Shown here one piece after another: positions 15,213 through 64,000 of a DNA stretch of 64,000 bases; within the stretch, counting starts at the first letter, position 1; the number at the start of each line of letters is the position of its first letter. The position numbers were made by a program, and so were the translations under genes. The notes beneath the pieces are model-generated. The model was not told the origin of the DNA, searched no databases, and saw nothing but the letters and a program-made list of their open reading frames with translations. The stretch comes from Lentisphaerae bacterium GWF2_49_21 (GTDB lineage: Bacteria; Verrucomicrobiota; Lentisphaeria; Victivallales; GWF2-50-93), in contig MHBH01000072.1 of assembly GCA_001804805.1 (NCBI GenBank), forward strand, positions 1 to 64,000, given 5' to 3'.

Positions 15213-15242
15213 AGTAAACGACATAGTTTACTGAATACGTAC
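15213..15242 (+). repeat. 30-bp dispersed repeat with hairpin, copy 1
   Basis: This stretch begins AGTAAACGACATAGTTTACT, a 7-bp stem with a 6-base loop, and continues for ten more bases ending in GTAC. It is identical over 30 bp to 40885-40914. Here it sits 13 bp before the start of the FlgT-like gene, inside the operon. Confidence 0.85.
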
Positions 15243-22733: not shown

Positions 22734-23163
22734 TATTTTTGAAAGTTTTTTTGGGGAAGAAAAAGACAGGGCATAGACTGGGCAGAAAGGTTCTAAATGA
22801 CAGTGTGCGGAAGTTCGAAAATGAGGAAGTTTGAAAGTTTAAACAAATACAGTAACAGTCCTTACAGGCCTTAACTGCTGGCAATCAAGAACACGTCTTG
22901 CGATGTTGACTACAAACATATTCAATAATTGCATTCGTTCGTAGCCTGTCCTCCGTAGCTCTCTTGGCGAAGGAGGATTAAGCTCGCAAGAGCTGTTCTT
23001 TTCTTAGTTTGGAATTTTCTTCCCTTCCTGCAAAATCTTATCCAACTCAGTATTTCCGCAAAAGTCAAATCCCGATGCTCAAGGGCCGGGGAATTTGACC
23101 CAATTAAGATTCCAATTTCCAGTATCCAGTTTCAAGTATCAAGTATCGAATTACATGCTTCCC
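22734..23163. other. Gene-free intergenic region with nested hairpin repeats
   Basis: No gene was found. The region holds a copy of a dispersed element also found at 27.3 kb: a GTTGACTACAAACA stretch near 22907-22920, TTCGTTCGTAG, and a hairpin AGCTC-GCAA-GAGCT at 22981-22994. In this copy, 22945-22979 is an inserted hairpin-like segment (CCTCC...GGAGG). At 23123-23150 there are CAGTATC/AAGTATC units, the same 7-mer family as at 63.2-63.4 kb. Confidence 0.6.
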
Positions 23164-25026
23164 TCATTCTTCCCGCACCTTCCGCGGTGCAAGATACAGC
23201 TTTGACACAAGTTCGGCCCCGGGATTTTTCCCGTTTAATTCAGTACGCCCGTAATTCCTCTGGAAGTCAAATAGCGGATAGGCCTTGCAGTCAAGAAACG
23301 TGAATCTTATTTCTACCTGGGAAGCCGACAAGTCAAAAGGAATCTGGAAAAGCTGCTCATTCATTCCCTGCTTTACTTCAAACTGCTGGGACTTGCCGTT
23401 AACTTCCAATTTGACAGTGCCGGGAACTTCACAATGGAATGGGAGTGCGAACTCCGCAATCCTACCTTCAAGGGAGTCTTTTACCGCGAATTTCTTTCTG
23501 ATTATATCGCCTTCCTTGATGTCAACCGGGGTCCACGAACCAAATGTCACCGGTCCATTATCCATATAAAGAATCTTATTCCCCATTGCTTCCGTCCTTA
23601 TTCCATTCGGGCGCACGATATTCATTATCGAAGATTCATAATACAATCTGTAGAAGTCATATCCGAAGAAAACAATCAAGCTTGTTATAAAAAGCGGCAG
23701 GACTGACTTGAATATCAATTCCCTCCAGTCGCGCCTTCGAAGATTGATCATCAGGACGCCCGCAAATCCTCCTGCACCGACAGCTAAAAGAGGCACGCAT
23801 GGCAATCTGAACCTTGCCAGTATATAAAATGCCGCAGTCGCAAAAAAGAAGGCGATCATAAGATAGGAAATAATCAGCAGCCGGGGATGGTACGACATCC
23901 TCTTGAATCCTTTTCTCGCATGATAAATGAAAAAATACAGCATCCAGGCAAGCGCAAGAGCCATTATCAATGACGTAGGGACGAATGCCAGCGCCTTGAA
24001 GGTGCTGCTCATCATGCCCTGGTAGGCAAACGCAATGTTGTTCGGAATCTCACGGTGATCCCAGAAGAGAAGCATCTTCCTCCATTGAAGCTCAAGAAAA
24101 GCCAGGGGTTCCTGCTTGAACCATCCGAAAATCCTGGTCGTTTCGGAAATCTCCTTCGCCTTTTCAGCCCACGCCCAGAACGTCTCGGGATATTCCATCG
24201 GGCCCGGTCCGGTTCCGGGATTACGTCCGCCTGCAGGCGCTTCCGGAGTGTTTCCGAGTGCAAGAACAGCTCCGGCCGCAGTAGAAGGCCCGCATAACTT
24301 CCCCGTCAGCCTTGTGTTCCTTGCAGCAAACGGGACCTGGGGCAGGATTACCATTATGACAAATACCGCCACAGGCGCAAGCCTCATTAAAATATTCTTG
24401 AGATCCCAGAAGGGCTTCTCCTTTGACTTTATCCTGACGGAGAAGAAAGCCGCAATCATCAGTCCCGGCACGAAAAACCAGATATTGCCGCGGGTCAGTA
24501 TGGAAAGCGACACAATAAATCCTGTTATGGCCCAGTGTACAGTCTTTCCACTCCTCCATGCGACAATCGCAACATAAAGGATCAGGATCACCCAGAACGC
24601 CTGCAGTGTTTCAATAAGATGATAAGGCACGTAAAGTATGAGCACCGCTGAAAATGCCGTGAGCAATGCCGTCAGCCCCCCTGCCCTTCTGCCCCAGAGC
24701 ATCGCTGATGCCAGTCCTGCGAAGAAGATAGTCAATGCAGAAAGGACAGACTGGGCGATCATCACCGCCCAGATCCCATTGCCCAGCACCTTGTGGACTA
24801 CCGGAAGAAAGACAGCATAGTAGAAAGGCTGGTAGTAGTATTTCTCGTTGAACTCCCCTTTGGATATCGTTTCGGAAAGCTCCTTGTATGTCTGCATGTC
24901 GGTACCGGCGGACGGACGTGACACCTGGACATCCTTTTCAAGGAGTTCCCTGCACACCTGCAGGCGGAGCAGGAATCCCGCCGAGGCAAGAACAACGAGC
25001 AGGATATAGAAGTGTTTTTTTATCAT
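23164..25026 (-). CDS. Polytopic glycosyltransferase of the GT39/ArnT (PMT) type
   Basis: The 620-residue protein has about 10-12 membrane segments, then a C-terminal beta-rich soluble domain (about residues 500-620) that is probably periplasmic. The first periplasmic loop holds GTDMQTYKELSETI and YYQPFYYAVFLPVVHKVLG, matching the acidic pair region of PMT/ArnT-type enzymes that use polyprenyl-phosphate sugars. Such enzymes glycosylate lipid A or surface proteins. An alternative is a glycan-related membrane protein without transferase activity. The gene is complete and follows frr on the minus strand. Confidence 0.65.
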   Translation of the reverse strand: MIKKHFYILLVVLASAGFLLRLQVCRELLEKDVQVSRPSAGTDMQTYKELSETISKGEFNEKYYYQPFYYAVFLPVVHKVLGNGIWAVMIAQSVLSALTIFFAGLASAMLWGRRAGGLTALLTAFSAVLILYVPYHLIETLQAFWVILILYVAIVAWRSGKTVHWAITGFIVSLSILTRGNIWFFVPGLMIAAFFSVRIKSKEKPFWDLKNILMRLAPVAVFVIMVILPQVPFAARNTRLTGKLCGPSTAAGAVLALGNTPEAPAGGRNPGTGPGPMEYPETFWAWAEKAKEISETTRIFGWFKQEPLAFLELQWRKMLLFWDHREIPNNIAFAYQGMMSSTFKALAFVPTSLIMALALAWMLYFFIYHARKGFKRMSYHPRLLIISYLMIAFFFATAAFYILARFRLPCVPLLAVGAGGFAGVLMINLRRRDWRELIFKSVLPLFITSLIVFFGYDFYRLYYESSIMNIVRPNGIRTEAMGNKILYMDNGPVTFGSWTPVDIKEGDIIRKKFAVKDSLEGRIAEFALPFHCEVPGTVKLEVNGKSQQFEVKQGMNEQLFQIPFDLSASQVEIRFTFLDCKAYPLFDFQRNYGRTELNGKNPGAELVSKLYLAPRKVREE

Positions 25027-29094: not shown

Positions 29095-29350
29095 AGCATT
29101 TTCTATTTTTTTGATTTTTGATCCGCCTGAGGCGGACAAGTTTAATTTTGCAGCAGGACTGATAAGACTAATTCGACCTATGTTTTATCCTGTCTGCGGT
29201 TTTAATTTCCCATCAAGGAATTGCCGGCGAGACGCCAGCGCTCCTAATTTCTAATTTCTTTCAAGTTACAAGTTTCAAGTTTCAAATTACGAGCTGCGAA
29301 TCCGCAGCTCTTCCCAACATGCCGCGGCATAGCTTCTTAGCGACGCCGGG
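29095..29350. other. Intergenic repeats upstream of rng
   Basis: No gene. The stretch 29220-29244 repeats the ATTGCCGGC-N5-GCCAGCGCTCC pattern found at 27253. It is followed by AAGTTACAAGTTTCAAGTTTCAAATTAC-like simple repeats (29269-29288) and a perfect 8-bp hairpin GAGCTGCG-AATC-CGCAGCTC near 29290-29309. The rng promoter must lie in the first 150 bp. Confidence 0.55.
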
Positions 29351-35032: not shown

Positions 35033-35191
35033 TCGAACTTACCTCTTCTTGCTTTACGCTTATAGCATATATTGAATTTTTACATTTAATCGGCCAGTGA
35101 AAATCCAGATTTATGTCAAAAGAGGAATTCCCCATAACCACTGTTAAGAATTAAAGAATTTATTGGTCATTTTAGATTCAAATGGTTTTAC

Positions 35192-35337
35192 GATGAGTCC
35201 GGTAGAGCGGACGAATCCGATGGAGTGCGCAGACGGAATTCCAAGAAGTCTGCGCTTTTGATATAAGGCATGAAAAAGAAAGCGGTGACTTTGTCACTCG
35301 CACTCCCACGGTCAGGCCGGAGCGCCTGACGTAAAGG
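35192..35337 (+). repeat. Multi-hairpin dispersed element, copy A
   Basis: Order on this strand: GATGAG...CGAATCC, then GGAGTGCGCAGAC with arms 35227-35234/35248-35255, a spacer, GCGGTGAC-TTT-GTCACTCGC near 35282-35300, CGCACTCC at 35299-35306 (complementary to GGAGTGCG at 35222-35229), and a terminal GTCAGGC/GCCTGAC hairpin (35311-35317/35324-35330) followed by GTAAAGG. Copies B and C lie at 38.9 and 49.3 kb in the opposite orientation. The gap 35033-35341 holds no gene. Confidence 0.85.
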
Positions 35338-38541: not shown

Positions 38542-38799
38542 CCAGCAATATACATGCAGTCTGGCAGATTGGAAAACCGGGAAGAAGAAGAGAGGTGTCA
38601 GGCCTGCCCCTCGTAGCCTTTAGGCGAAGTGGGGTGTCAGGTGTCAGCCTGCAATTTCTTGGAGGCGCTGAGAATGGCAGACATGCAAGCTGATTATCCA
38701 TCGAAACAATAATACGCAAGCCCACAAGGGCTGTTCTTATGTCGCCTCCCTGTGGGGACTCTGGACATGTTATATTCCACCCATATCCCATGGCGAAAG

Positions 38800-39083
38800 C
38801 CCTATCTACTATACGCATTTTCCAGCAGTGTCCACGTCACGCTCTCCGATTCTTATGTCTTTTCATCTTTACGTCAGGCGCTTCCCTGGCCGGCACTCGG
38901 GCAAGGCGGCCTGACCCGGGAGTGCGTGTGACGAAGTCACCGCTCTCTTGTTCAGTCATGCAAAGCTTCGATGAAAACAAAAGCGCAGACTGCATGGAAT
39001 TCCGTCTGCGCACTCCAACGGATTCGCTACGCTCATCATAAAACTTCAAAACAGATTCAGAAAAATGCGTATAGTAGATAGGG
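38800..39083. repeat. 22-bp perfect terminal inverted repeats bracketing element copy B
   Basis: Arm 38800-38821 (starts CCCTATCTACTATACGCATT) and arm 39062-39083 are exact reverse complements. The 284-bp unit between and including them contains the whole copy B. Homology continues poorly beyond the arms. No transposase is encoded, so this may be a non-autonomous mobile unit or a secondary-structure cassette. Confidence 0.75.
38867..39037 (-). repeat. Multi-hairpin dispersed element, copy B
   Basis: In reverse orientation it matches copy A from GATGAGCG...CGAATCC through GGAGTGCGCAGACGGAATTCC, a GTCTGCGCTTTTG arm, AGCGGTGACTTCGTCAC, CGCACTCC and the closing GTCAGGC...GCCTGACGTAAAG hairpin. 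The closing hairpin loop carries an extra GC-rich stretch of about 25 bases absent from A, itself able to fold. Confidence 0.85.
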
Positions 39084-39211
39084 CGAAAGATCTCTACACA
39101 CGCGTCCCATGGGGACGAAATGGAAATAGGCAGGGGCTTCAGCCCCTGTTTATTGCCGTGGTTGTATTCGCGTGCCATAGGTACGCGATGTCAATGTCCC
39201 GGTTTTACGGA

Positions 39212-40884: not shown

Positions 40885-40914
40885 AGTAAACGACATAGTT
40901 TACTGAATACGTAC
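40885..40914 (+). repeat. 30-bp dispersed repeat with hairpin, copy 2
   Basis: Identical over 30 bp to 15213-15242, with the AGTAAAC/GTTTACT stem. It sits between tRNA-Arg and the 3' end of the giant M6 protease gene. Confidence 0.85.
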
Positions 40915-40964: not shown

Positions 40965-43900
40965 CTACTTCACGAATGCCGCTGAGAGCACGTTGATGAT
41001 CCTGGCGCCGTCGTCTATGGACACCTTGGACTTTTTGGTGAGGATGCCGGAATACTTGCCGCCGTCCGTGACCGCATCCTGAGTCCCAGCTGCGATCTTC
41101 GCAAGGATTTCGAGCTTCTCACCCGGAATCAGGTAGATGTCAAGGCCATCGGCGACATCGTCGAAGTTGCTGAGCGCCGCTACGGAGACGATTCCTATCT
41201 TTCCTCCGATGATCTCGGCCTCCTGCGTGGCATCAATGATTCCCTGCGTCCTTAGGTTGGCCAGGACGGCGACCATCTTGTCCGGTGCCACATGTACGGA
41301 GAACGGAACTGATGAGAGCGCCGAAGTGGAGGTCTTGTCGTTGCCGACACCCGCGCCTTCTACGCCGTAGAAGAGCATGTAGAGGCCCGAGTCAATCTTT
41401 GCGGCGAGTTGTGCGTCTTCGCCAGTCTTGAGGATGGTGTTCTCCACCCACATGTCTTCGTAGGCAGGGACTATTGCGTCCTCGTCCCATCCGTTGCGGG
41501 AGTCGAGGAAGTTCTGGAGACCCATGATGTCGGCCTGGAGCGTGACAGATACCGGTGCGGCCGGCAGGAACGCCGAGGAGTCGAAGAAGTTGTTCACCTC
41601 AAGACATCCCTTCTTCGTCGCCACCGTGTGGCTTGCCGTGCCCTTGGCGACATCGGGCATCGTCGTGAAGAAGAAGTCGAAGGTGTGTGTCCCTTCTAGG
41701 CCTATCGTCGTGGAGTAGGCAAAGTATCCGGTTGCATCCGTGTTCGCAAGTACCGAGGTAATTCCTGTTATCGGGTTCCTGACCTTCACCTGCATGCCGG
41801 GGATGCCCGTCGCGGGAATGGACTGGTCTATTACCCTGCCCTTGAACACGGCCGTGAACGGGGCCACCTGATCATTGGCCGGAACCTGCGTCAGGATGAT
41901 GTCCACCGCCGAATAACAGTTCACGGTCAGCGTAACATTCGTGTAACCCAATGTCGATACTCCGTACAGCAGGAAGTACCATGTGCCTGCAGCAGGCTTG
42001 GTGACGGTCAGGGATTCTCCGGTGGCCGACTCAATGCCCTTGGCGTTGCTGGAAATGGTCGTCGGCAGCGAGCCGAACTTGGCGTAGAGGTCGCAGTCGT
42101 TGAGTATAGCGTTCGTGGTGCCTGTCAGCTTGGCGACAAGCCTCGTGGTTCCTGCTGGGACGTCTATCGAATAATACGCGCAGCTGTCCTTGGTACCGGC
42201 AATGTTGGCGATCGGGACGTTGTCCGCTACCGCAGTCGTTATGCCTAGGACGCGGCCTTGCGCGGGCGTAGTGCTCTGGGGACTGGTCTTTGGGATTGTG
42301 TCGTTGTTCGACTTGATCCAGTAATAGTAGAGGACGCCGGGAACCGCAGTTCCTGCAGCAGGCGCCAGATCGTCATATGTAAGGCCTGTGACTTTTGCCA
42401 GCTGTACTCCGGTGAACACGTTGGTGGTGTTCCTGTAGATGATGTAGTTCTCAGCGAGCGGCACCTCGGTCCAGGTGAGCCGCACCTTGTCAGTATAGAC
42501 ATCCTTGCTCGCCGTGAGCGTCGGAGCCGCCAGGCTCGCGATCGTCGGAAGTTTGTAGGCGTACCCTTTGGCGATTGCGCTCGCATTGCTGGTATATGCC
42601 CCGAAAATAGCCTTGACGATATAGTCGTGGCTGATGGTGTCCCCAGGAACATCGTCGTACTTTGTCGCGGCGATGACAATTACGCTCCCTCCATCACGGA
42701 ACAGCTCGTAGCTGGTCGCTCCTGTGACTGCGGCCCAGGTCACCCGAACCTTCCCGTAAAGCGTTCCGGCTGTCGCGGTGATGGTCGCCGGTCCTGTGAG
42801 GCTTATGTGTTTTCCGGTCACTGTCGTGCTGTAGTTAGTCGTGCAGCCGGTGGCGTCGAGTTTCGCCTTGATCCTGTAGAAGTATGGCGTATTGGCCGCA
42901 GCGGCAGTGTGATCATAGACTATGGCACCAGGTACGTTTATCGCTGCATGGGCGTTGGCGAATGTGTTGACGGTGTCCCAGTAGACATCGTAGCTTGTGG
43001 CTCCAGCAACCGCCGTCCATGACAGGTGCACCTTGCCGAAGTATGTTCCCGCGCTCGCGGTGACTGTCGGACCGGGCATCAGCTTGTGGTATCCGGACCC
43101 GGCAGTGGTGTTGAAGTCGCTCGTGTAGAATGTGGAATACTTCGCCTTGACCTTGTAGTAGTAGACGTTGTTCGGCGGCGTGATGACAGTCTGCATCAGG
43201 GCCGACGTGTCGTCGTACAGGAGCGTTGGCGCCGCGATGTCCGCGAAGATGGCCTGGTTCAGCGTGCAGCCCTTGTCCGTGTAGCGGTACACATCGTATC
43301 CCGTCGCTCCAGGAACCGCCGTCCATGTCACGCGCACCTTGCCGAACAATGTGCCCGCAGTTGCGCCGACCGTTGCAGGCCCGGCCTTCTTGACCGCGCC
43401 GGTGTTCGGACCCTGTTTCAGGGCGCTTTCACCGTTGCCGTTCAATGCGCTGACCCAGTAGAAATAGCTCCTGGAAGGATTCGGATCAGGATCTGCGAGA
43501 TCCGCAGAGTCGTTGTACGTGTATGCCGCGAGGACGGGATTTGACTGGACCGTGACGAGCAGGTCTGCGGATATCGCTGTCCCGCCGGACAGGTAGGCCA
43601 GCCCTGTCGTCTTCACCGGTACTGAGAAACTGTTGTCGTCGATTTTGGTGACAACGAAAGATTTTCCGTTGAGAGGAGTGGACATCGTACCCGCCACTCC
43701 GCTTATCAGTACCGTGTCGCCGGTCGCAAATCCATGGGAGTTCGAGGTTATATCACTCTTGTTGACGTTGCTTACGATGCCAGTTATCGTCTCGAGCGTG
43801 GCAGTTCCTCCGGGCAGATAGGTCCTGGCCAGTGTGCTCACTGGCACCGAGAAGTTGTCAGCATCTACCACCGTAATCACATGGGATTTCCCATTCAAAA

Positions 43901-46900
43901 GGGTCGATATCGTCCCGGCAGTTCCGTTTATCAGTACCTTGTTCCCATTTATGAGACCGTGTCCGGCCAGGGTGATGACACAGTTGGCGGCGGCGCTTGC
44001 ATTGCTTATCGCCCTCGCCGGATTCGGGGTCCTGTATATCCTGTAGGAGCCCGCGCCAATGACTTTTGGCCAGCCCACAACGACCTTGTCGAAGGTTGTC
44101 GCGTTGGAGACGGTGATGCTTCCCGGGCTTGCCGGCACTCTCGTGACGTAGCCGGAGTTGTAGGCGCTGAAGACGCTCGTATTGACGGCGTTCTTCGCCT
44201 TGAGCCAGTAGAAGTAGGTCTTCGCCGGGTCGAAAGTCACGTCGATGTCGACATATGCGCAGTCGGCGGTGTCGGCGATCTTCGCCGCCGCGACGGTCGT
44301 TGGAATTAATGTCCCGGTCGCGGCAGCCCTCCAGACCTCGTAGCTGGTTGCACCAACCGACGCAGTCCATGTCAGGGATATCGCGTTCTCGAAGGTGCCG
44401 TCGCTTGCCAGGAGGCCGGCAGGCGCCAGAGGCGCCGTCTTCAGGTACTGTGCCAGGAGCGTCACTCCGGCATATCCCGTGTTCCCATAAAGATGGATGA
44501 ACCAGTCTCCTGCGGCGGGATCATTTATCTGGATCAGTCCGTTGTTTGTGCTCATCACGCATCTCTTCACAATTGTTCCGGTCTGGTTGGTGACATCGAA
44601 ATCGCAATCTCCGGTTCCGCCGGTGAGTTTTATCTCCAGCAGCTTGTATCCGGCTGGGACAACTATCTTGAAGGTCTGAATTGAACCTGCGGTGCCGGAT
44701 ATCGGAGTCTTTGCAGTGCCACTTACAAGAGTGGTGATTATCCCGTTGCTCCTGGTGGCAGGGACGGAAACGCTGTAGTCTCCTTCATCAGTAATGTTTC
44801 CACCGACATCTTCTGTGACTGCCCGCACCCAGTAGTAATAATCATAATTTGCGGTACCGGCGGAGAACTGGTCGGTATAGGTCCAGGGATCAGAGGATTC
44901 CACCTCGGCGAGCTTGGTTGCCATTTCGATATCATCAAATTCGGATCTGAAAATCTCATAGGCATCGGCGCCGCCTACGGCATCAGTCCACGTAAGTATT
45001 ACCTTGTCCGCAACTGTAGTGTCAGCAGTCAGGACGGGTTTCCCGAGGACCGGATCTGCGAGGCTTATGTCCAGTGTGACCGAGTCATAGTTGGCGAAGG
45101 CGTATAGCAGCACATACCAGATGCCCGGTGTCGGATCGAATACCCGTATCTTCTCATTGGCTCCTTCATTGGTGGAGCGCTTTTCATAGACCGAGAGGGA
45201 AGGTGCGGCATCATGGCGCAGGTAGATATCGCAGTCGCCGTTGCCTGTTGTCGTGATCTCGAGGAGCTTTGTTCCGGGGGCGACGGTGACCGTGAAGTAT
45301 TTCGCATCGCCTGCCAGGACCGGCGGTGGAGTTTCCGGGGTGCCGGGCGTGACAACCGTAGGTGCGCTGGAGATGAAGTTGGCGGTGACAGTGGCATTTC
45401 CGGTGAGCGTGACATTGGCATTAAGCGGATCTTGTGCGTTATCGACAGCCGCATTGCCGACTACGGACCAGCCCGCGAAGAAGTCTGCACCTCCGGCGGT
45501 GGCGGTAATTGGAATTGCCGTCGCCGTGAGCTGGCTGCTTGACCCGGATACGGGAGTTGTTGTGCCGTTGCCTGCGACTGCCATTGTCAAAGTTGTGGTG
45601 TCATGTGCGAAATTCGCAGTGACGATTGAATTCCCGGTGTAGGAGATGCTTGCATCTGCGGAATTCGCATTGGGAGTGAAAGTGACAGGACCGCCTATAT
45701 ACGTCCAGTTGACGAAATGATAATTGGCATTGAAAGAAGCGGAAATATTGGCAGTAGTGGTCCCTGACGCTTGAACAGGAGTTGTATTATCGACTGTTCC
45801 ATTTCCACCGCTTTGCACTGTGAGCGAGTAATCGTTGTCTCTGATGGTGAGTTCAAACGAACTCAAAGTCCCAAGTGATGCGCCAGTGGCGTTGCTCAGT
45901 ATGAAGTTCACAGTTTCATCGCCTTCGACAGTTGTATCAACTGTGTTAACTTTAACATTGAAATATTTATAAGCTGCATCTTGGTCAGCCCATGATAAAT
46001 TCAGGCTGTATTTATTATTAATTGTATCATATATGACGTTATGAGGCGTATTGTTGATAACTTCGACAATATAATAATCATCACCATGAGTTGCCGTGCC
46101 ATCTGTAATCGTGACATCTACACTTGCGATACCGTCTTTACCTCCTGTACGATTCACATAAATAGTTTTGCTGCCGGAAAATTCGTCCACAGGATTGGTG
46201 GAGTTTGTGCTGAAATCAAGCACTCCCGGATCATTGCCATTTCCCTTTATCGAGAATGTGAAAGGATTCTTCGTGGTGTCATTGCTGGCTATGCTTACTG
46301 TTGCGGTCCTGAATCCGGAAGCGCCGGGGGTGAATTTCACCTGGAATGTAGTGCTGCCTGCGGAAGCAATCGGAGTGGAAGGATCGGCTATGACTTGGAA
46401 TTCTGAAGCATTTGTACCTGTAATCGAAACCTTTGGGGTTCCGGTAAGGTCCAGGGCGAGAGCTCCAATATTGCTGATGGTGAATGTCCGGGTGACTGTA
46501 CTGACTCCAACTTCCGCATTCCCAAAGTCAGTATGATCCGTGAGGGACGGAGTGGAATCCCCATTGGCAATTAAAACGGTATTGCCTTTGACTGTTATCT
46601 TGGGAGCTGGCAGATCAACGGTAATGGTGGCAGGAGGGGACCATTTCTGCCAGACGCCGTTTGCATAGGCCCTGACTCTGTACTGGTAGGATCCATTCGC
46701 CTTACCGAAGATATCCCAGGTTGCAACGACCCCGACATTGTTGCTCAGAGTATTGCCTACGAAACCGCTGTATTGGGTGTTTGTCACTGAGATATCATCT
46801 ATCGCCCAGCCATTAGCTGGGAAGGCAGTCTCATCGGAAGAGCTTTCAACGTTCATGATAAAACGGAGCTTGATAGTGTCTCCCAGCGAGAAACCCAGAG

Positions 46901-49085
46901 CGCTGAAGCTTGCATAAGACTTTGAAATGGCCTGCCAAGAGGAAATCAATCCGCCGTTATGTGTCCAGAGAGTCTCCCAGGTATCTCCGTTGTCGCTGGA
47001 AGCCTGGAGTTTCAGATAGCCGCTGTTGGCTGCAGAGTTTGATTTAAAGTAGAAAAAGAGATTGATATTGCTTGTCAAGGTGATGGATTCCCTCATCGCC
47101 AGGGATGATACAGATGAATACCATTTGTCACCGTCGTAGCTGGTGAAATAATAACTGTTAGTGCCTGTCCTGCTATCAACGTCAGTACGCTGTACCTGTC
47201 CGCCGATTGACCAGTTCTCCCACATGGCATCTTCGTTTTCCGCACCGTCCGTGAACGAGGTCTGGTAGGCAGTTCCTTCCTGGATCTCGTATTTTGTCGC
47301 ACCGAGTGAGGGAGTCCATGAAACAATATAATCTGAAGTTGCAACGGTCTGATCATGGACAGTCGGAACGAGGCTGACAAGGTCGTATGTCATCGTTGTG
47401 CCGGAAGCGGAGAAATTGCTCAGAGTGTTGTATGTGTAATAGGTGGCGTTGTCAGCTCTCAGATAGTCCACAGTCCCCTGGTACAGCATTGAATTCGAGG
47501 AGTCGACTCCGGCCTGATCCTTGAAATCTCCGCTTAGATTAGTCCATGCGTCCGACGCCTGGCAGATACTGGATGAACCTATAGAATCATTACCGTCTGC
47601 CTCCTCGATTTTAACCAGCGGGTGCAGCCATTCGCCAAGGTCGTTGTTTGCGCTTTTGCTGTCGACATGGTAGATGATTATACCTGAACCGGGGAGAGCT
47701 GTGTCGAATCCTTCCTGCTGTCGGTTTTCTATGAGGAAGTATTCACCGTTCGAACAGCCGTCGCGGAGGAGATGGACATCCGGATTGTCATAAAGGCGTC
47801 CGATGGGAATGGAAGTGTCTGAATGTATCAGCTTTGGGTTGACAAAACCGAGGGAGTTCTTGCACCAGGCGCTGAAATGTGGAGGACAGTTTCCGTCGGA
47901 TCCGTTCCAGCTGCCGCCCGACATCAGGCACCAGTCGCCAAGACCTCCAAATGTGCTACTGTAGTCGTAAAGATCTGGAAGACCGAAGAAATGGCCCAGT
48001 TCATGGCAGATGACGCCAATTCTTGTAATTTCACCGAACTGGTCGCTTTCGTAGCCTCTGCATGCGGGTTCAGTATGGTACGTATACATCTTGACCGTGT
48101 CTTTTGTTGCGGTGCTGGCAAGTTCCCACTTGTGGGACCAGATGCAATCATCCTGTCCGCCCCATTCCTCTCCATATCCCGAGTGGATCACGGTAAGACA
48201 GTCCACCCAGCCGTCACCGTCTCCATCACCCTGGGAGAAATCAAATCCAGCGGCATCTGCTGCATTAATTGCATCTTGGATCATTGCCTGTGGATTCTGA
48301 TCATTGCCATATACGTCATTCCCGCCATAATACGCCTGGTTGCTTGGTAGCATGACCCAGGGTGTAACTATGGTCTGGATAGTAACATTGCCATATGAAG
48401 CTTCACTGTAGTAATCACGTACAGATCCGACGGCTCCATCAGTTATATGGCCTGCCTGATTGAAAAGGTCATTGTATTCGGCCTGCGGGCGTCCGTAGGC
48501 CGGATTTACCGTTCCGCCGCTCCATTGGTCTGCGAAACATGCGAGAATGACAATATTCTTTACTGTGACCTGGCCTGAAACCGGGACTTTCTGCATGGGA
48601 GGGGCGGGTAGCGAGAGGGTTGAGCCTCCTACGGGAGCCGCCAGGACTTTGCTAGCCGGAGCATTGGGATTTTGGGCAGGCGCATTTGCAGGGGCTATGG
48701 CAACCTTGGTTTTTCTCTTGTTTACTTTTTCAAGAATAAGCTTCTTGTCGGGAAGATCGCCTTTTTTTAAACCTTTTGCCTGGGGATTGGTTTCCCCCAC
48801 CTTGTCATTGGGAAGGACGTCAAAGGCAGCCTCGTTCTTCTTGGGAACGGCGTATTTCCAGAAACCATCGGCCTTGTCCTTCTTAACGACATATCCCTTT
48901 TCATCCTCCTGCCAGGAGAAGTGCTCATCACCTCTGTTCTTGATTTTGACTTTTTTACCGTCAGGCTGTACGACTTCGACCGCCTTGGGATTTGCAGGTA
49001 CCGCAAAAAGGGAGGTGGTGGTGATGAAAAAGACAGACAGCAGGAATATCAGAAGATATTTCCTATGGGAAATCAGATGTTTCAT
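40965..49085 (-). CDS. Giant secreted M6-family metalloprotease with multiple adhesion-type domains
   Basis: The ATG at 49085 (GGAGCG upstream) gives 2706 residues with a signal peptide (about 14-28, ending LFA). The protease domain (about 180-550) holds HELGHFFGLPDLYD at about 361, preceded by a DGDGDGWVD calcium loop, and the Met-turn GDWCLMSGG. Then follow, in order: a jelly-roll/MAM-like domain; a choice-of-anchor D-type domain; a Calx-beta domain; two InlB B-repeat-like units; a pre-peptidase C-terminal (PPC) domain; FN3 and a second PPC domain; more FN3 repeats with two FCCH-like inserts (GHGLINGNKVLI, HGFATGDTVLI); a third PPC; and an unassigned C-terminal 250 residues. It should be exported and act on surface or environmental protein. 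No obvious sorting tail was seen. Confidence 0.9.
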   Translation of the reverse strand: MKHLISHRKYLLIFLLSVFFITTTSLFAVPANPKAVEVVQPDGKKVKIKNRGDEHFSWQEDEKGYVVKKDKADGFWKYAVPKKNEAAFDVLPNDKVGETNPQAKGLKKGDLPDKKLILEKVNKRKTKVAIAPANAPAQNPNAPASKVLAAPVGGSTLSLPAPPMQKVPVSGQVTVKNIVILACFADQWSGGTVNPAYGRPQAEYNDLFNQAGHITDGAVGSVRDYYSEASYGNVTIQTIVTPWVMLPSNQAYYGGNDVYGNDQNPQAMIQDAINAADAAGFDFSQGDGDGDGWVDCLTVIHSGYGEEWGGQDDCIWSHKWELASTATKDTVKMYTYHTEPACRGYESDQFGEITRIGVICHELGHFFGLPDLYDYSSTFGGLGDWCLMSGGSWNGSDGNCPPHFSAWCKNSLGFVNPKLIHSDTSIPIGRLYDNPDVHLLRDGCSNGEYFLIENRQQEGFDTALPGSGIIIYHVDSKSANNDLGEWLHPLVKIEEADGNDSIGSSSICQASDAWTNLSGDFKDQAGVDSSNSMLYQGTVDYLRADNATYYTYNTLSNFSASGTTMTYDLVSLVPTVHDQTVATSDYIVSWTPSLGATKYEIQEGTAYQTSFTDGAENEDAMWENWSIGGQVQRTDVDSRTGTNSYYFTSYDGDKWYSSVSSLAMRESITLTSNINLFFYFKSNSAANSGYLKLQASSDNGDTWETLWTHNGGLISSWQAISKSYASFSALGFSLGDTIKLRFIMNVESSSDETAFPANGWAIDDISVTNTQYSGFVGNTLSNNVGVVATWDIFGKANGSYQYRVRAYANGVWQKWSPPATITVDLPAPKITVKGNTVLIANGDSTPSLTDHTDFGNAEVGVSTVTRTFTISNIGALALDLTGTPKVSITGTNASEFQVIADPSTPIASAGSTTFQVKFTPGASGFRTATVSIASNDTTKNPFTFSIKGNGNDPGVLDFSTNSTNPVDEFSGSKTIYVNRTGGKDGIASVDVTITDGTATHGDDYYIVEVINNTPHNVIYDTINNKYSLNLSWADQDAAYKYFNVKVNTVDTTVEGDETVNFILSNATGASLGTLSSFELTIRDNDYSLTVQSGGNGTVDNTTPVQASGTTTANISASFNANYHFVNWTYIGGPVTFTPNANSADASISYTGNSIVTANFAHDTTTLTMAVAGNGTTTPVSGSSSQLTATAIPITATAGGADFFAGWSVVGNAAVDNAQDPLNANVTLTGNATVTANFISSAPTVVTPGTPETPPPVLAGDAKYFTVTVAPGTKLLEITTTGNGDCDIYLRHDAAPSLSVYEKRSTNEGANEKIRVFDPTPGIWYVLLYAFANYDSVTLDISLADPVLGKPVLTADTTVADKVILTWTDAVGGADAYEIFRSEFDDIEMATKLAEVESSDPWTYTDQFSAGTANYDYYYWVRAVTEDVGGNITDEGDYSVSVPATRSNGIITTLVSGTAKTPISGTAGSIQTFKIVVPAGYKLLEIKLTGGTGDCDFDVTNQTGTIVKRCVMSTNNGLIQINDPAAGDWFIHLYGNTGYAGVTLLAQYLKTAPLAPAGLLASDGTFENAISLTWTASVGATSYEVWRAAATGTLIPTTVAAAKIADTADCAYVDIDVTFDPAKTYFYWLKAKNAVNTSVFSAYNSGYVTRVPASPGSITVSNATTFDKVVVGWPKVIGAGSYRIYRTPNPARAISNASAAANCVITLAGHGLINGNKVLINGTAGTISTLLNGKSHVITVVDADNFSVPVSTLARTYLPGGTATLETITGIVSNVNKSDITSNSHGFATGDTVLISGVAGTMSTPLNGKSFVVTKIDDNSFSVPVKTTGLAYLSGGTAISADLLVTVQSNPVLAAYTYNDSADLADPDPNPSRSYFYWVSALNGNGESALKQGPNTGAVKKAGPATVGATAGTLFGKVRVTWTAVPGATGYDVYRYTDKGCTLNQAIFADIAAPTLLYDDTSALMQTVITPPNNVYYYKVKAKYSTFYTSDFNTTAGSGYHKLMPGPTVTASAGTYFGKVHLSWTAVAGATSYDVYWDTVNTFANAHAAINVPGAIVYDHTAAAANTPYFYRIKAKLDATGCTTNYSTTVTGKHISLTGPATITATAGTLYGKVRVTWAAVTGATSYELFRDGGSVIVIAATKYDDVPGDTISHDYIVKAIFGAYTSNASAIAKGYAYKLPTIASLAAPTLTASKDVYTDKVRLTWTEVPLAENYIIYRNTTNVFTGVQLAKVTGLTYDDLAPAAGTAVPGVLYYYWIKSNNDTIPKTSPQSTTPAQGRVLGITTAVADNVPIANIAGTKDSCAYYSIDVPAGTTRLVAKLTGTTNAILNDCDLYAKFGSLPTTISSNAKGIESATGESLTVTKPAAGTWYFLLYGVSTLGYTNVTLTVNCYSAVDIILTQVPANDQVAPFTAVFKGRVIDQSIPATGIPGMQVKVRNPITGITSVLANTDATGYFAYSTTIGLEGTHTFDFFFTTMPDVAKGTASHTVATKKGCLEVNNFFDSSAFLPAAPVSVTLQADIMGLQNFLDSRNGWDEDAIVPAYEDMWVENTILKTGEDAQLAAKIDSGLYMLFYGVEGAGVGNDKTSTSALSSVPFSVHVAPDKMVAVLANLRTQGIIDATQEAEIIGGKIGIVSVAALSNFDDVADGLDIYLIPGEKLEILAKIAAGTQDAVTDGGKYSGILTKKSKVSIDDGARIINVLSAAFVK

Positions 49086-49256
49086 AGTGTAACGCTCCGT
49101 AATTAATTGAGCAAAATGCAAAATTTTCAATTTAAAGGAGCGCGGGTTTTCTTACCCGCGAAAATCTATTTAAAATGGCGGACAAGAATGACCGCCCTCC
49201 TTTATTTTGAAACTCCATTCTATTATGAGACTATTAGTAACTCTTGCCTTTTGATC

Positions 49257-49390
49257 TTACGTCAGGCCCCTTGGCCTGACCTTGGAGTGCGGCACCCCTG
49301 TGCCGCTTTGTATTTATTTCCGATTCTGCCTGAATCCAGAATTCAAAGCGGCAGAGGACTGCCGCACTCCAAAGATTCGCTTCGCTCATC
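49257..49390 (-). repeat. Multi-hairpin dispersed element, copy C
   Basis: Read on the minus strand it runs GATGAGCGAAGCGAATC, GGAGTGCGGCAG with arm CTGCCGC, a spacer, AAAGCGGCACAGGGGTGCCGC, CACTCC, then GTCAGGCC-AAGG-GGCCTGACGTAA. The order matches A and B but stem 1 is GCGGCAG/CTGCCGC here and GCGCAGAC/GTCTGCGC in A and B, so both arms changed together. Confidence 0.85.
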
Positions 49391-49541
49391 AATAAATCAT
49401 TTGAATCCGGAACAATCAATTCTTAACCAGGAAAACAGCCCTTATGGGCTTAACTACAAACCAAATAAACATGGTACAGGCTTCCGACTTCGCCCGAGGG
49501 CTACGCCGTGACAAGGAAAGCCCGTACCTACTTAAATAAAA

Positions 49542-49567: not shown

Positions 49568-49580
49568 GAAAAACAAAAGT

Positions 49581-49695
49581 GACAGGCGAGACGCCTGTCC
49601 TACACTCACAAAGCACAGGCGAGACCTGCCCTGAGCCTGTCGAAGGGCGCCTGTGCTACACTCCAAATGACAGGCGAGACGCCTGTCCTACACTA
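49581..49695. repeat. Three ACAGGCGAGAC-type hairpin units
   Basis: Units at 49581-49605 and 49669-49693 read GACAGGCGAGACGCCTGTC then CTACACT. The middle one (about 49614-49661) has the same ends but its loop carries CCCTGAGCCTGTCGAAGGG (49629-49647), a word seen in intergenic DNA of many unrelated bacteria. A diverged single unit occurs at 27.21 kb. Confidence 0.8.
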
Positions 49696-49700
49696 TCAAA

Positions 49701-52700
49701 TCAAACTGCAAGCAGGGCTTCCAGTCCGAGATCAACTTCACTCTTGAACAGATTATTGCGTTCCATGAGCCTGCCACGGTCGGCCATCTGGGCGAACATG
49801 TCGTCCGCTGCAGCTTTTTCCTGCGCTTCTGCGACCAACTGAGGCTCGACAATCTCCTCCCTACCGCTCATTATCGCGTCAATGAACTCTTCTTCCAAGT
49901 CATCAAACTGGATGTCAGTGCTATATACGCTGTCAATCATTGCCAGCATAGGATAGTTGGACACCGAGTATGAACCAGATGTTGTAACGTTGCTTGAGCC
50001 AAACCAGTGGTTGCCAAGATCGAGGCCGCCACCCGTGCCTGCGGCAGGACCGGTGACCCAGCCTGTGCCGGACGAGAAGAAGAGGCTTCCATCCGTTATG
50101 TTGAGGCCTGCGCCCTGTTCAGTGACATCCCACCAGAACTTCATGGTAAGTGCAGAGACATCGCCAGTAGCCCTGGTGACGGTCCAGACTCTGTTGGCGG
50201 TATTGACCAGATTTGAAGCACCTACTGGTATGCCGTCATACTTGCCATTTACAGTTATAGGATAGAATGTGTTGAGACCGACGAGTTTGTTCACATTGCC
50301 CGGGCTTGTGATGTCGATCTGGATTACAGGATCCCCAACAAGGTCTGTCATGAATACACTCTTCATCACATTTGTGGCCTTCACATAGACCTTGCTGGTT
50401 CCATCCGTCACGAAGTAATGCGTGGCGTCACATCCCACGAGATTGTTGTTGATTTCCAGCGAAGTGAATGTCGTGGAAGTTCCCACGGTCGTGTTGTTCA
50501 TCTGGAAGTAGACAGGAGCTCCGCCGAATGTGAAGTTTGTCACCCTCATTGCACCCTGGGACATGATAGCATCGCTGTTGAGAACCAGGTTGGCTATCGT
50601 TGTGGTTGGCAGAGCAAATGTACCAGCGAGCTTGATATTCCTGGTTCCAGCACCAGTCAGCGTCAAAGTATCACCGACTGTGAGTGTCTTCGAGCTGTCA
50701 AGGTTGCTGCCGTTGAGTGTGAGGTTGTCGATTATCAGTGAAGTGCCGCTGTTGGTAAGAGTCTTGCCAGCACCGTTAAGAGTGATGGTAGAAACGTTGG
50801 AAACAACTGCATTATTAAGTATTGGATTAACGAGAGCAGTGAGGAATGTTATTGATGTAGGTGTTGATCCACCAACTGTACCGGTTACTACATGGGTATT
50901 TGGATCGCCTGCAATTGTAATAACGCTGCCATTTGCTATCGGATATTTAATGCCATCAACCGCAATAGTTGTAGTTCCCGCAGGATATCCTGCTAGATTA
51001 TTAATAGCAGCGCCAGCTATTTCTGCTATAGTACCAGTTCCCGAGTTTGTGAGATTGCCATTCGCGAGAGTGATGACATTGGCTTTCAATGCCATTGTGT
51101 TGACAATATTGCCAGTGCCGGTAATATTGATTCCTGTTACTCCGTTGGTGACATTCAGATTTGCCTTGTTGGTCAGATTTCCATCCACCATGTCTATGGT
51201 GTTTGCTGTCAAGGTTCCGGTGTTGTTGTTTATTGCACCAGCGCCTGTCAGGATGAGGGCATCGACCGTTACCATTGAACCGGTGTTTGTGAGACTGCCA
51301 CCAGCAAATGTGATGTCGATTGGGCCGCCAGGAAGGGCGCCTACGCCTCTAATGTTCATTGAATTGACAAGGTTTCCTGTGCCGGTGAATGTGATATCGG
51401 TGGAGATCAGCGTGGCCTTGTTGGTGATTGTACCATTGACAAGGTCAACAGTGTTCGTGGTCAAGGTTCCGGTGTTGTTGTTTATCGCACCAGCGCCTGT
51501 CAGGATGAGGGCATCGACAGTCATTGTACCGGTGTTGGTGAGATTCCCACCGGCAAGAGTAATGTCAACAGGAGTACCAACAAGCCCCACTCCCTTCATT
51601 ACATTGGAATTGACAATGCTTCCTGTACCGGTGAAGGTGATGGTATTCGAATTCAATGCCGCTTTGCTGGTCAGCGTGCCATTTACCATGTCTATGGTGT
51701 TTGCCGTCAGGGTTCCGGTGTTGTTGTTCAAGTTACCAATCACGGCACCAGAACCGGTAAAATCCAAGGCATCGACAGACATTGTTCCAGTATTGGTAAG
51801 ATTTCCACCGGCAAGAGTGATGTCAACGACGTCGCCAACACCAGAAGCGCCCCTCATGAAATTGGAATTTACAATATTTCCATTGCCTGTGAAGGTGATG
51901 GTGTCTGTATTCAGAATCGCCTTGCTGGTCAACGTGCCGGTAGCCATGTTGATGGCATTTGCCGTCAGGGTTCCCGTGTTGTTGTTCAAGGCGCCATTGC
52001 CGACAAGGGTAATATTGTTCGACAATGTCATCGTACCGGCATTGGTGAGGGTGCCATTTCCAACATAAGTGATGGAATTGGCTTCCAGTTTCTTAATATT
52101 GTTGAGGAGACCTGTCCCCATTGTGATGTCTGTGCTGGCATCGCCTTTAATCCAATTGGAATTCGTGAAATAGGCTGTTCCGTTGAGGATGAAATCCTCC
52201 CCAGTGAGAATGTCGATTGTTCCTAACGTCTGGTTTATTATACCGCCGTTTGTGAGAGTGACATTACCAGCGGCACCAATTGTCAGGAGTCCGTAGTTGT
52301 CCAGCTTGCCACCGGCAAGAGTGATATTGCCATTGACTGTCAGCGTGCCCTTGTTCGTAAGGTTCGGGGCCACTACTGGTGCCGGAGCTGCCGTAAGATC
52401 GATACTGGTTGCAGTGAAAGTACCTTTAACTACAGTGAGTGAATTGTTGGAAGCAAATGTTCCGATATTGCTGCCAGCAATGGAAGCCGTCAGCTGCAGT
52501 TCGCTTGCTCCACCGGGGCCGGACATGAATCCATTGGGGCTTGTGATCGTGCCGGCGAGGCCTGTTGTAATAATGCTTATGGGTGACAGTACCGTTGCAG
52601 TGGCTGTCGCCTTGGCAGGCTGTATGACAACTGCGCTACCTGATGTGAACAGTATGTTGCCGGTGGAGTTTATTGAATTGGTCAGGAATATATTGTCTCC

Positions 52701-55700
52701 AGCACCTCCGCCATCGTCAATGGTTACGGCTCCGACGTTCAGGACATTGCCTATCCATATGTCGCCTGTAACTGATGTGATGTTGAGAGCACCCTTGTTT
52801 CCGGTGAACTTAGGACCGGCTATTATGCTGTTTCCAATCGTTACATCTCCGTTTGCCGTAATCGATACGGCTCCGGTCACGAGTGTGTCAACCTTGACAT
52901 TGCCAGTGAAGGTGAGATTGCTGTCCTTATTGATTGTAACAAACGCGAGCAATCCATCCTTCTTGATCGTGACTTCGCCCATGAATTCAAGGGTTGCGCC
53001 GGCGTTGAGTTCAAGAGTGAAGATGGTGTCATTAAGATTGACCTTGCCATTCAGAGCAAGAGTACCGTCGATAGTCGCCGCGAGTCCGGCCGCAGTGGCC
53101 GCTATCGGGGTCGTGCCTGTAGTGACTATCTCGAACCTGTTGTTCGCATTGATGTCGAGGCGTGTGACATCAAGGCTGAGAAGAGTAGCCGTACTGCCTC
53201 CCGTACCTATTGGAACAAGTGAGAGGTTCTGTGTGCCAATGGTCAGCTTAAGTGAACCATTTGCCCCATCAATCACCTGTATCGTTCCGGCAAGCCAATT
53301 AGTAATATCCAATCCTTTTGTCACGATGTTGTTGTTCAGGGCAGTGACAATTACGTTTGTTGGATTATTGAGCTTCACAATACTGGTGGCCGAGCCTATG
53401 GTGGTGTTGCCAGAAAGGATCATGTCGCCGCCGAACGATATGGTCTTGGGAGACACTACGGTAATATTCTGTAAGGTTATATCACCGTTGAATGTGATGT
53501 TGCCGGTAGCGGAAAGCGTTTTGCCGCCTGCATTCACATTTCCGCCTGCGCTAATTACCAGATCTCCACCAACGGATATTGAAGTGAGCAGGTTGATGTT
53601 TCCAAGCGTGGCTGTCACTGTCAGTGTCTTCACGTTCGTAACACTGCCAAGAGTGATATCATTGTTTGCAAGAAGTGTGAGGTTCTGAGCATTGCCAGTG
53701 AACGTGGCCATTGTGCCGATGGAAAGGCTGCCGCCCGTAGACTGTATTGTTATGGCTGCAAGAGGAAGCGTTACGACTTTTGCAGAACCGACAAGGAACA
53801 GGCTGTTGGCCGTGGTGAAGGTTCCGGGAATCGTAATCGTACCGCCAAGTTCAAGGGTAGCAGTGGCCTTGACTACATCAACAAATGTATTGTTGAGTGT
53901 AATCTTTCCTGCCAGCGCAAGGGTTCCGTCGATTGCTCCAGGCGCAGCACCAGCGGCCGTCGAAAGGACAGTTCCGGTGGTGACCACTTCAAACCTGTTA
54001 TTGGCGGCTATTGTCAAGGTGTCGAGACCGAGCGTCAATAAAGTTGCAGTGCTTGTCGTCCCGTTAGGAACGATGGTAAGATTCTGGGCTCCGATATTGA
54101 TCTTGAGGGAACCGACGTAGAGTGCGGGCGGAACTGGTACTCCTGGATCAGTTACCTGGATGACTCTGCCGCCTGCCCAGTTCCAAGTGCTGAGATCCAG
54201 GCCCTTGGAAACGATGTTGTTGTTCAGGCCGGTGACTATCAGATCGCTGTCTACCATCTTCACTGTGTTGGTGGCCGCGCCGATTGTCACATTGCCATAG
54301 AGATTTACCGTGGTCAGGGCGGTATCGCCCATGAAGACTGTCTTGTTGCTTCCAGCGACCAGTGACAGGTTCGTCAGGTCGATGATTCCGCCGTCAAGAT
54401 GGACATCGCCGGTGACATTGATGACTGTGGAGTTAGGAGCCACAAGCCCGGTGATCGCGACATTGTTCATGAACAGGTTGCCGCCGACCGTGATAGTCCT
54501 CTGCGTGTTGATAATGACATTTGTCATCGTGACATTTGAAGTGGCGGTCAATTTCCCGCCGCTGTCGATCGTCGTGCCGGTTATTGTCATAGCGGCCGCA
54601 TTGATCTCGCCGAAGTTATGGAGCGTAGGTCCGAGGATCTGCAGGTTCGCTGTGCCTGCACCGGTGACGGTGAACACGTTCAACTTGACGTTGTCAGTGC
54701 CGTTGCCCACTTCAAAATTGCTGTAGACATTGATCGGACCCCAGGCGCTCTTGGTGCTCAGGGTGGCGCCAACCTTGCCATAGAGAAGAAGGCTGTCGTA
54801 CTTCATCGCCTGCTGCGTGATGGCGTCGACTGCGAGCACTTTCTGTGTTGCGTTGACGGAATCATATATGACAGTGGTGTTGCTTGTGGCGGTATGGTTG
54901 ACAGACAACTTCGTGCTGTCTATGCTGTAGGTCAGGAATTCCAGAGTTGCGGTCTCAGCGACAGCAGCCGGCAGCTGGATGTCATTGTCATTTAGGACGA
55001 TCCTGCCGTTGAGGGTCACGGGAGTCGTTGTTGTGCCGACAGTGGCGGCGATCGCAAGATATGCGTTGTTGACAACAGATATCTTGGAGGTGTATTTGCC
55101 AACCCAGTCAGGACCGTTGATGGTCCAGCTGTAGTTGAGAGTTGCCTTGCCTGCAGGTACGAGCAGAGGATCCATCTGGGTGTCGTCGAAAGCGAAGATG
55201 GCGTTGTTCGCGTTGAGGACGCCGTCGGCTTCCGTGAGTGCAATGCCATTGGCGCTTATCCATGTGGAACCGCCGTCGCGGCCCTTGGTTATCTCGCCGT
55301 TGAAGTAGTAGAGGACCTTGCTGACTGAATTCTCATATGCGCCTGAAGTGATCCTGCTTGCAAAGTTTTCAAGCTCGGTCTGGTCAAATCCTGCACCACC
55401 GACCGCCATGTTGAACCAGTTGGGATTGTAGACGAAGATGGTCTTGGAATGTCCGCCGTTGTCTGTCAGCTTTGAATCAAGCTTCTGAGTGCTGAAGGTC
55501 GCCCAGTCGGTGGACTGTATCGCCTTGCTTGCCGCTGGAGCGCCGTAGCCGTAGACAGCCCCATATACGCTGTTGCTGATGTTGTTCGTGCCATAGCTGA
55601 AGAGGTCGTCATGGATGCCAAGGTTCTGGTTTGCCAGCGTAATTGCAACTGAAGGAGCAATCGAGGGATTGCCGCTCTGGATCAGGGCAGTGGCATTGTT

Positions 55701-63196: not shown

Positions 63197-63404
63197 AAAC
63201 CGGGGATTGGAGATTCAGGAGCGATTCAGAATGCCGGCAGCTCTAAGAACTGCAAATTGAGCCTACGGGAACCTGAGCTTTTTCCCATTCTTTAATGATT
63301 GCGTAGCAATCTTTGGACTGCGCGCCTGACATAAAACAAAAGACAGGAGATATTTTCCTGATCAGGACGCGTTTTGGAAGGCCTTTCTGAAGCCGGTTCC
63401 CGGC

Positions 63405-63449
63405 ATCAAGTATCAAGTATCAAGTATCAAGTATCAAGTATCAAGCATC
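63405..63449 (+). repeat. Six ATCAAGT units (7-bp period)
   Basis: Five perfect ATCAAGT units, one ATCAAGC and a final ATC. The array ends on the stop codon of the export gene. Similar CAGTATC/AAGTATC words occur at 23.12-23.15 kb. Confidence 0.9.
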
Positions 63450-64000
63450 TAAAAACTCAGCTCCCGCTGCAGGACCTGGAGGGTTTTCCTGAACATGTTG
63501 CCGGCGACAGAAGAGTATTTCCCGAGGCTGGCGGTACCGGTGCGGCCGGGGACCGGAGAACCGGATTGGAAATCGATCTCGATCTGGTAATATGTCGAAA
63601 CGGGCTTGAAGAACCCGTCCTCGCCTACGAATCCGGGAATGGGTCCGCCGAAGACGCTGAGAAGCGGAGATGGCGGAAGCGCCGCCGGCAGGGGGTTGAT
63701 CCCCGTGACACGGCCTTTATAGGACGCAAGCTCGTCGCTGAGCGACACCGAGACACGGTCGCCCTTGCGGATGTGCTTGACATCGTCCTCGACGGCGAAG
63801 GCGACGGCCTTTCCGGCGACGGGCTGGTACACCTCTCCGACAATATCCCCCTTTGAAAGCCATTTCCCCTTCTTGAGATGCTGGTCGTGGAGGGAGAAGA
63901 CTCCGTCGATCTGGCTTGTGGTACGCATTTGTATAGAGCGCCTTTCCGTTTCAGCCTGGGCGGTGCGGCTGTACTCAAGCGATTCCTTCCGGACCTCTAT
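63449..64000 (-). CDS. HlyD-type periplasmic adaptor/export protein, 5' partial
   Basis: The frame is open to the end of the window, so only the C-terminal 183 residues are seen. The order is a helical segment (EVRKESLEYSRTAQAETERRSIQ), then TSQIDGVFSLHDQHLKKGKWLSKGDIVGEVYQP, a lipoyl/barrel-sandwich hybrid typical of HlyD/RND adaptor proteins, and beta-barrel strands (IRKGDRVSVSL, YYQIEIDFQ) ending PGRTGTASLG. An M50-type peptidase fused to such a domain is an alternative. It lies immediately upstream of the DUF4347 giant on the same strand, and DUF4347 proteins are commonly linked to type I-like export genes; I infer it exports that protein. Confidence 0.72.
   Translation of the reverse strand: MEVRKESLEYSRTAQAETERRSIQMRTTSQIDGVFSLHDQHLKKGKWLSKGDIVGEVYQPVAGKAVAFAVEDDVKHIRKGDRVSVSLSDELASYKGRVTGINPLPAALPPSPLLSVFGGPIPGFVGEDGFFKPVSTYYQIEIDFQSGSPVPGRTGTASLGKYSSVAGNMFRKTLQVLQRELSF

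Follow-up and report, generated by a model that had tools for sequence, protein, structure and literature searches.

Four-hairpin dispersed repeats in a Lentisphaerae genome are probably gene-less copies of an element cognate to one clade of RAYT transposases

Insertion sequences of the IS200/IS605 type insert 3′ of a fixed tetra- or pentanucleotide without target duplication, and their cleavage sites are selected by a guide sequence. Recognition of single-stranded DNA by the transposase TnpA-REP depends on features of both foot and hairpin, the foot occupying the position of the IS200/IS605 guide (Corneloup et al.; PMC8266576). In the parts of the survey by Di Nocera et al. (2013; PMC3733652) drawn on here, RAYT genes have GTAG REPs on either side in REPtrons and other terminal inverted repeats, in some cases repeated, in TIRtrons, and no Lentisphaerae appear among the TIRtron species named. 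The classification of Y1 proteins by Quentin et al. (2018; PMC6006769) assigns atypical structures to subclass 2.6 and to class 3, and the portion of its text drawn on here likewise makes no mention of Lentisphaerae. An open literature search, with many journals outside its coverage, returned no paper on RAYTs in this lineage. The origin of REP sequences, and whether RAYTs move them, are open questions. Here we describe three elements (copies A, B and C) in a window of 64,000 nucleotides, the whole stretch of DNA analysed, from Lentisphaerae bacterium GWF2_49_21. They are very probably non-autonomous forms, lacking the gene, of a mobile element whose cognate transposases make up a single RAYT/TnpA-REP (HUH Y1) clade.

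An earlier note made from the sequence had described three elements with the same order of parts, and every part that it listed was found, with slightly shifted boundaries (see the table). The copies have one nested four-hairpin plan in common, comprising the P0 5′ arm, the outer hairpin PL, the foot GGAGT, hairpin P2 (GCG..CGC), a spacer, hairpin P3 (GCG..CGC), ACTCC, the outer hairpin PR and the P0 3′ arm. Copy A starts with TTTTACG and ends with CGTAAA, its termini also pairing (TTTAC/GTAAA), and direct reading of the three copies gives the consensus TTTA(C/T)(T)G ... C(G/A)TAA. Because both inner hairpins start with GCG and end with CGC, pairing of GGAGTGCG with CGCACTCC competes with P2 and P3, and the P1 fold and the two-hairpin fold are both possible. 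GGAGTGCG occurs eight times in the window (1.9 expected), a count reached in none of 100 shuffles. The compensatory differences claimed between copies A and C are also present, stem 1 being GCGCAGAC..GTCTGCGC in A and GCGGCAG..CTGCCGC in C, and stem 2 GCGGTGAC..GTCAC(T)CGC in A and GCGGCAC..GTGCCGC in C. Part of this difference is lineage divergence, since A-type and C-type copies go with different RAYTs. Copy C has a very long ORF on either side, one encoding 2721 aa with peptidase M6 and PPC domains and the other 4387 aa with DUF4347.

Table. Coordinates in the window of copies A, B and C, their parts and neighbouring features
Feature	Position	Strand	Remarks
Copy A, complete gene-less element	35186..35335	+	order P0-PL-P1-P2-spacer-P3-P1'-PR-P0'
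Copy A, P0 5′ arm TTTAC	35187..35191	+	pairs with GTAAA 35331-35335
Copy A, PL, outer left hairpin GATGAGTCC..GGACGAATC	35192..35217	+	GA/GA mismatches
Copy A, P1 5′ arm = foot/tag GGAGT	35222..35226	+	extends to GGAGTGCG
Copy A, P2, left inner hairpin GCGCAGAC..GTCTGCGC	35227..35255	+	
Copy A, spacer	35256..35281	+	position of the RAYT gene in gene-bearing relatives
Copy A, P3, right inner hairpin GCGGTGAC..GTCACTCGC	35282..35301	+	
Copy A, P1 3′ arm ACTCC	35302..35306	+	tag on the other strand
Copy A, PR, outer right hairpin GTCAGGC..GCCTGAC	35311..35330	+	
280-bp MITE around copy B	38802..39081	+	terminal inverted repeats CTATCTACTATACGCAT..ATGCGTATAGTAGATAG
Probable 10-bp target-site duplication	left 38792..38801 GGCGAAAGCC; right 39082-39091 GGCGAAAGAT	+	8/10 identical
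Copy B, complete gene-less element	38868..39043	-	120.3 bits in R1, outside R1 training set
Copy C, complete gene-less element	49256..49397	-	type cognate to L304/L310 RAYT copies
Copy C, right inner end	49282..49315	-	100%/34 bp vs L304 right end; 97%/31 bp vs L310
Copy C, left end and flank	49344..49421	-	92% identity to L310 left end over 78 bp
Very long ORFs around copy C	40965-49130 and 49701-62864	-	

A covariance model and genome-wide search, proposed in the earlier note, recovered the copies left out of training. Model R1, built from copy A and five others, scored copy B at 120 bits and copy C at 57.6 bits (E = 6e-10); copy A itself, which helped to build the model, scored 144.8 bits. 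R1 also has matches in G000 to G004, G000 being the genome of the window. Copy A as a query gave 49 matches in its own genome, and a broader model (R2) gave 131 strand-redundant matches (E <= 1e-3) that reduce to 80 distinct places there, strand redundancy inflating the raw counts; the 80 places are a lower bound, as 150 of 1266 first-look candidates were scored with R2. The low copy number that would have spoken against a dispersed element is thus not what the genome contains, and three genus-mates have 54-89 strand-redundant matches each. Outer flanks are common to copies over some tens of bases only and differ by subfamily. The nearest orthologous loci of A and B gave no R1 match and are too diverged (at most 68% protein identity) to supply an empty site for the element. 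Matches to GTCAGGC..GCCTGACGTAA in other phyla cover the PR hairpin only, with no clear element at those matches outside Lentisphaerae-type genomes. Small palindromes (CCGTCGTCGCCAAGGCTATGCCGG.. and CCCTTCGACAAGCTCAGGGC) lie in or beside element hairpins (L239; L008, L009), and for the one inserted at L239:501-631 a similar copy without it (L234:501-601) serves as the empty site.

The genome of the window has 20 Y1_Tnp matches, most of which are unflanked by the element. One of them, a 180-aa protein (L285:2400-2942), lies between two elements that share one orientation. A third element lies at L285:4816-4974, ~1.7 kb from this flanked RAYT of G000:C2 and past a 489-aa ORF. A first look around Y1 genes with R1 missed most flanking copies. 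Among homologues of the L285 protein in 41 relatives, those with at least 42% identity have elements on both sides in 13 of 13 cases (11 full-length proteins and the fragments L309 and L310, from G000-G004 plus G021 of another family); of these, L296 and L308 are not independent tests because R2 was trained partly on their adjoining elements, its alignment also including matches from both strands. At 35% identity or less, 14 of 15 homologues are without the element, the exception being a weak match (20 bits) that overlaps the gene of L311. The full-length flanked members, 11 in number, form one clade against 27 unflanked proteins (support 100/99) in a tree of 38 Y1 proteins, on which a single change accounts for the flanked state.

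A profile built from the flanked clade proteins (A4) identified eight further members in other families of the class, six of which (L324-L328, L330) have GGA[GC]TGC-tagged hairpins on both sides, here of the TTTGGA(G/C)TGC type. L329 retains remnants only and L331 ends at a contig end. No tagged hairpins were found at four more distant homologues (L335-L338). The REP-associated transposase gene that the earlier note had suggested looking for therefore exists, as one RAYT clade flanked by, or embedded in, the element; association with any Y1 gene of the genome was rejected, a single clade being flanked. The proteins match PF01797 and keep N-H-x-H and Y-V-x-x-N-P in all 11 full-length members, with 57-59 residues between the HUH and Tyr motifs. 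They score 76-91 bits against NF047646 REP_Tyr_transpos (cut-off 80; two of three proteins just below), the REP-associated family outscores IS200 for the transposase, and the sole match among solved structures is TnpA-REP 4er8 (E = 3.8e-8). The clade thus has the Y1 HUH domain and class-2 Tyr motif (Y..NP) of the RAYT family, and its genes are flanked by dispersed palindromes of their own.

At several loci the gene lies within the element. L308 reads TTACG-PL-CTGGAGTGCGCAGAT..ATCTGCGC-RAYT-AGCGGTGAC..GTCACCGCACTCC-PR-CGTAA, the gene lying between P2 and P3 of one element, and L304 and L326 have the same arrangement. The element at L310 has ends like those of copy C and a gene missing its middle part, making it an internally shortened intermediate; by comparison with an L304-type locus, the deletion is bounded by TATGCAA-like repeats. 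Because its ends match those of gene-bearing L310 and L304 (see the table), copy C seems to have arisen from a RAYT-bearing element by internal deletion, judging from the sequences. Copies A and B match halves of the elements around L296 and L308, for A the right half. Type-3 copies (e.g., L012 and L249) have two extra spacer hairpins, a layout common to the elements around L299 and L306. By eye, element subfamilies appear to follow RAYT subclades. These arrangements bear on the idea that the palindrome is a static host feature, structuring the chromosome or terminating transcription, beside or into which RAYT genes insert. Host roles have been proposed for REPs (PMC3733652, in the parts drawn on here), and some RAYTs (L296, L303, L327) are flanked by at least two complete elements, as if inserted between copies; however, the paired elements at one RAYT locus are most alike each other (L294, L295, L298), and at several loci the gene sits between the inner hairpins of an element, so that we regard a static palindrome as very improbable.

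Copy B differs from A and C in lying inside a MITE with terminal inverted repeats and a probable target-site duplication, features that among the three copies belong to B only. Many copies in G001 likewise sit in CTRTCTACTATACGCAT-ended elements, mostly of 270-325 bp and often with duplications of ~9-10 bp (clear 9-10-bp duplications at L163, L164, L167, L182 and L192), and matches to the CTRTCTACTATACGCAT end number 27 in G000 and 97 in G001. It could be supposed from this that all copies descend from a CTRTCTACTATACGCAT-ended element moved by a DDE transposase. Copies A and C and most other G000 copies, however, do not have these ends, the ends are found as well around an unrelated core, likewise made of several hairpins in a similar topology (L162, L163, L167, L190; an outer hairpin, a stem enclosing two CAGGGGCT..AGCCCCTG hairpins, and an outer hairpin), and the element adjoins RAYTs in other families of the class. 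Since the element occurs beyond the MITE ends and the MITE occurs with another core, the MITE is a second vehicle rather than the origin, that is, a separate DDE-like mobile element carrying the structure as cargo and accounting for part of its spread, including copy B. DDE-driven descent of the whole family is contradicted as a general explanation and we consider it very unlikely, though it holds for copy B.

Several other repeats were observed. The CTRTCTACTATACGCAT-ended MITE (also at L192) often lies within small palindromic repeats. An identical 30-bp palindromic repeat, AGTAAACGACATAGTTTACTGAATACGTAC, at 15213-15242 and 40885-40914 of the window is possibly another REP-type family, and two GTGACAGGCGAGACGCCTGTCCTACACT-like copies near copy C (49577-49615 and 49665-49703) represent another small palindromic repeat. 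Short tandem runs of a 7-base unit (TATCAAG) occur at 63384-63452, 23103-23164 and 29253-29300, and similar runs (ATCCAAT) in the flanks of elements in G002.

The earlier note had taken the compensatory changes in copy C to favour selection on folded RNA or DNA, such as a new structured RNA or a REP-like element, and stem changes do track pairing once many copies are aligned. Across 64 distinct copies the stem cells comprise 2042 Watson-Crick, 46 G-T, 19 A-C and 75 other pairs. Near-identical rows were collapsed to 44 non-redundant copies for comparison with shuffled pairings, and observed pairing was 0.948 vs 0.643 for P2, 0.983 vs 0.778 for P3, 0.959 vs 0.679 for PR and 0.947 vs 0.763 for PL, figures biased towards the structure as the alignment was fitted to it and the copies are related. 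P1, which holds the foot, is nearly invariant (0.959 vs 0.930). In the raw sequences, several pairs plainly show swaps such as GC to CG or AT to TA.

Such covariation would be expected of a new structured-RNA family, cis-regulatory or a small RNA, hitch-hiking beside transposase genes. As RNA, the + strand folds slightly more stably than the - strand (mean MFE -66.8 vs -64.9 kcal/mol), and the closing stem P0 has 25 G-T vs 4 A-C mismatches. Outside P0, however, there are 17 G-T vs 12 A-C mismatches, which does not indicate selection on an RNA strand, because that should favour G-U; the loops are unconserved, the window gave no Rfam match to the element, the link is to one RAYT clade only, and copies face either way relative to the genes beside them, some between divergent genes (31 tandem, 10 convergent, 9 divergent, from rough ORF calls in 400-bp flanks and of little weight). 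We therefore hold a structured RNA to be highly improbable: the REP-like half of the earlier reading is borne out by the association with a RAYT clade, and the RNA half is not. The hammerhead ribozyme has a conserved core, CUGAUGA..GAAA, with A15.1-U16.1. PL resembles this core (GATGAGTCC..GGACGAA), but A-C replaces C-U before GAUGA, U replaces A after GAA, and Rfam gave no match, and a hammerhead was rejected. The invariant letters are instead a transposase-type foot, GGAGTGC. Given this invariant foot, the variable loops and the similar numbers of G-T and A-C mismatches, the best reading of the covariation is that hairpins of single-stranded DNA are recognised by their structure, or that palindromes are repaired; hairpin repair by template switching could be one source. 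Strong covariation in a dispersed repeat need not imply a functional RNA.

Mobility with a cognate RAYT, our preferred reading, can be cast as the following model. A complete element would have a left end formed by the foot TTTGGAGT and a GCG..CGC hairpin (P2), then the RAYT gene, and a right end formed by that foot and hairpin in inverted orientation (P3 plus ACTCCAAA), with, in this genus, usually an extra outer hairpin on each side and termini TTAC(G)/(C)GTAA. Gene-less copies would be a left end joined to a right end after loss of the gene by internal deletion, and structurally they would amount to two inverted foot-tagged hairpins, as in REPINs. In single-stranded DNA, such as that of the lagging strand, P2 and P3 may both fold, and the transposase would recognise the sequence of the invariant foot and the shape of the hairpin, nick with its tyrosine and move the element in trans. 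Reading by shape would leave stem sequences free to vary as long as pairing is kept, giving rise to covariation, to which palindrome replacement or repair may contribute. Direct support comes from the common architecture, the copy number, the exclusive link to one RAYT clade, the loci with the gene inside the element and the agreement of copy C with gene-bearing ends; movement, cleavage, target preference, single-strand recognition and the use of the foot as a guide we infer from the protein family. A more tentative proposal, which we find possible but on balance doubtful, is that this clade is not domesticated and consists of still self-mobile single-strand transposons linking IS200/IS605 and REPtrons, with their own guide foot (GGAGT) and a nearly sequence-free, shape-only recognition of hairpins. 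If so, copies A and C as deletion products would show the birth of REPIN-type miniature elements. A single genus thus contains elements that bear the gene, flank it, have been partly deleted or lack it altogether; their foot is invariant and their stems covary freely, and this makes both the internal-deletion origin and shape recognition directly testable.

Among known systems, CGTC REPs have an unpaired CGTC at one end and no dedicated transposase. The present element has ACGTCAGGC at one end, but its GTC is base-paired in PR and a dedicated transposase is present. Like IS200/IS605 elements, gene-bearing copies have a Y1 transposase between two subterminal hairpins; they differ in that the transposase is closer to the REP-associated family than to IS200, the ends are inverted copies of each other, and gene-less copies far outnumber gene-bearing ones. 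TnpA-Y1 subclass 2.6 (RAYT group 5, Bacteroidetes) resembles the clade in protein length (~179 aa), in the NH-x-H and Y..NP motifs and in genes flanked by ‘atypical secondary structures’ with copies elsewhere, but it belongs to another phylum and its median HUH-Tyr spacing is 82 residues, vs 57-59 here (PMC6006769, in the portion drawn on here).

The REPtrons, REPs and REPINs of E. coli, Pseudomonas and Stenotrophomonas, as far as the parts of the sources drawn on here describe them, are alike in that inverted pairs of dispersed, foot-tagged hairpins flank a Y1 HUH gene, that many copies have no gene and that the association is clade-specific (PMC3116915, PMC8266576, PMC6006769). The REPIN-type architecture is present, in that two inverted repeats on either side of a short spacer form a larger hairpin and the copies are dispersed and lack a gene, but in place of the canonical GT[AG]G, which is absent 5′ of the hairpin, the foot is GGAGTGC (GGAGT or GGACT before GCG). 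The elements are also 100-200 bp long, with a closing stem, extra outer hairpins and gene-in-element copies, and their stems vary widely within one genome. TIRtrons (TIRYTs) share with L304, L308 and L326 a RAYT-type gene within inverted repeats unrelated to GTAG REPs, and in the parts of the survey drawn on here some TIRs are self-complementary and some families are moderately repeated and dimeric, as here (PMC3733652). Many, though not all, of those TIRs share the motif GGGGWSAS (PMC3733652), which is absent from this element, where TTTGGAGTGC is conserved instead and precedes a hairpin; moreover, the gene is either flanked by complete two-hairpin elements, not by single TIRs, or enclosed in such an element. 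With neither the GTAG foot nor the GGGGWSAS motif, the element family nonetheless fits the general REPtron/TIRtron scheme.
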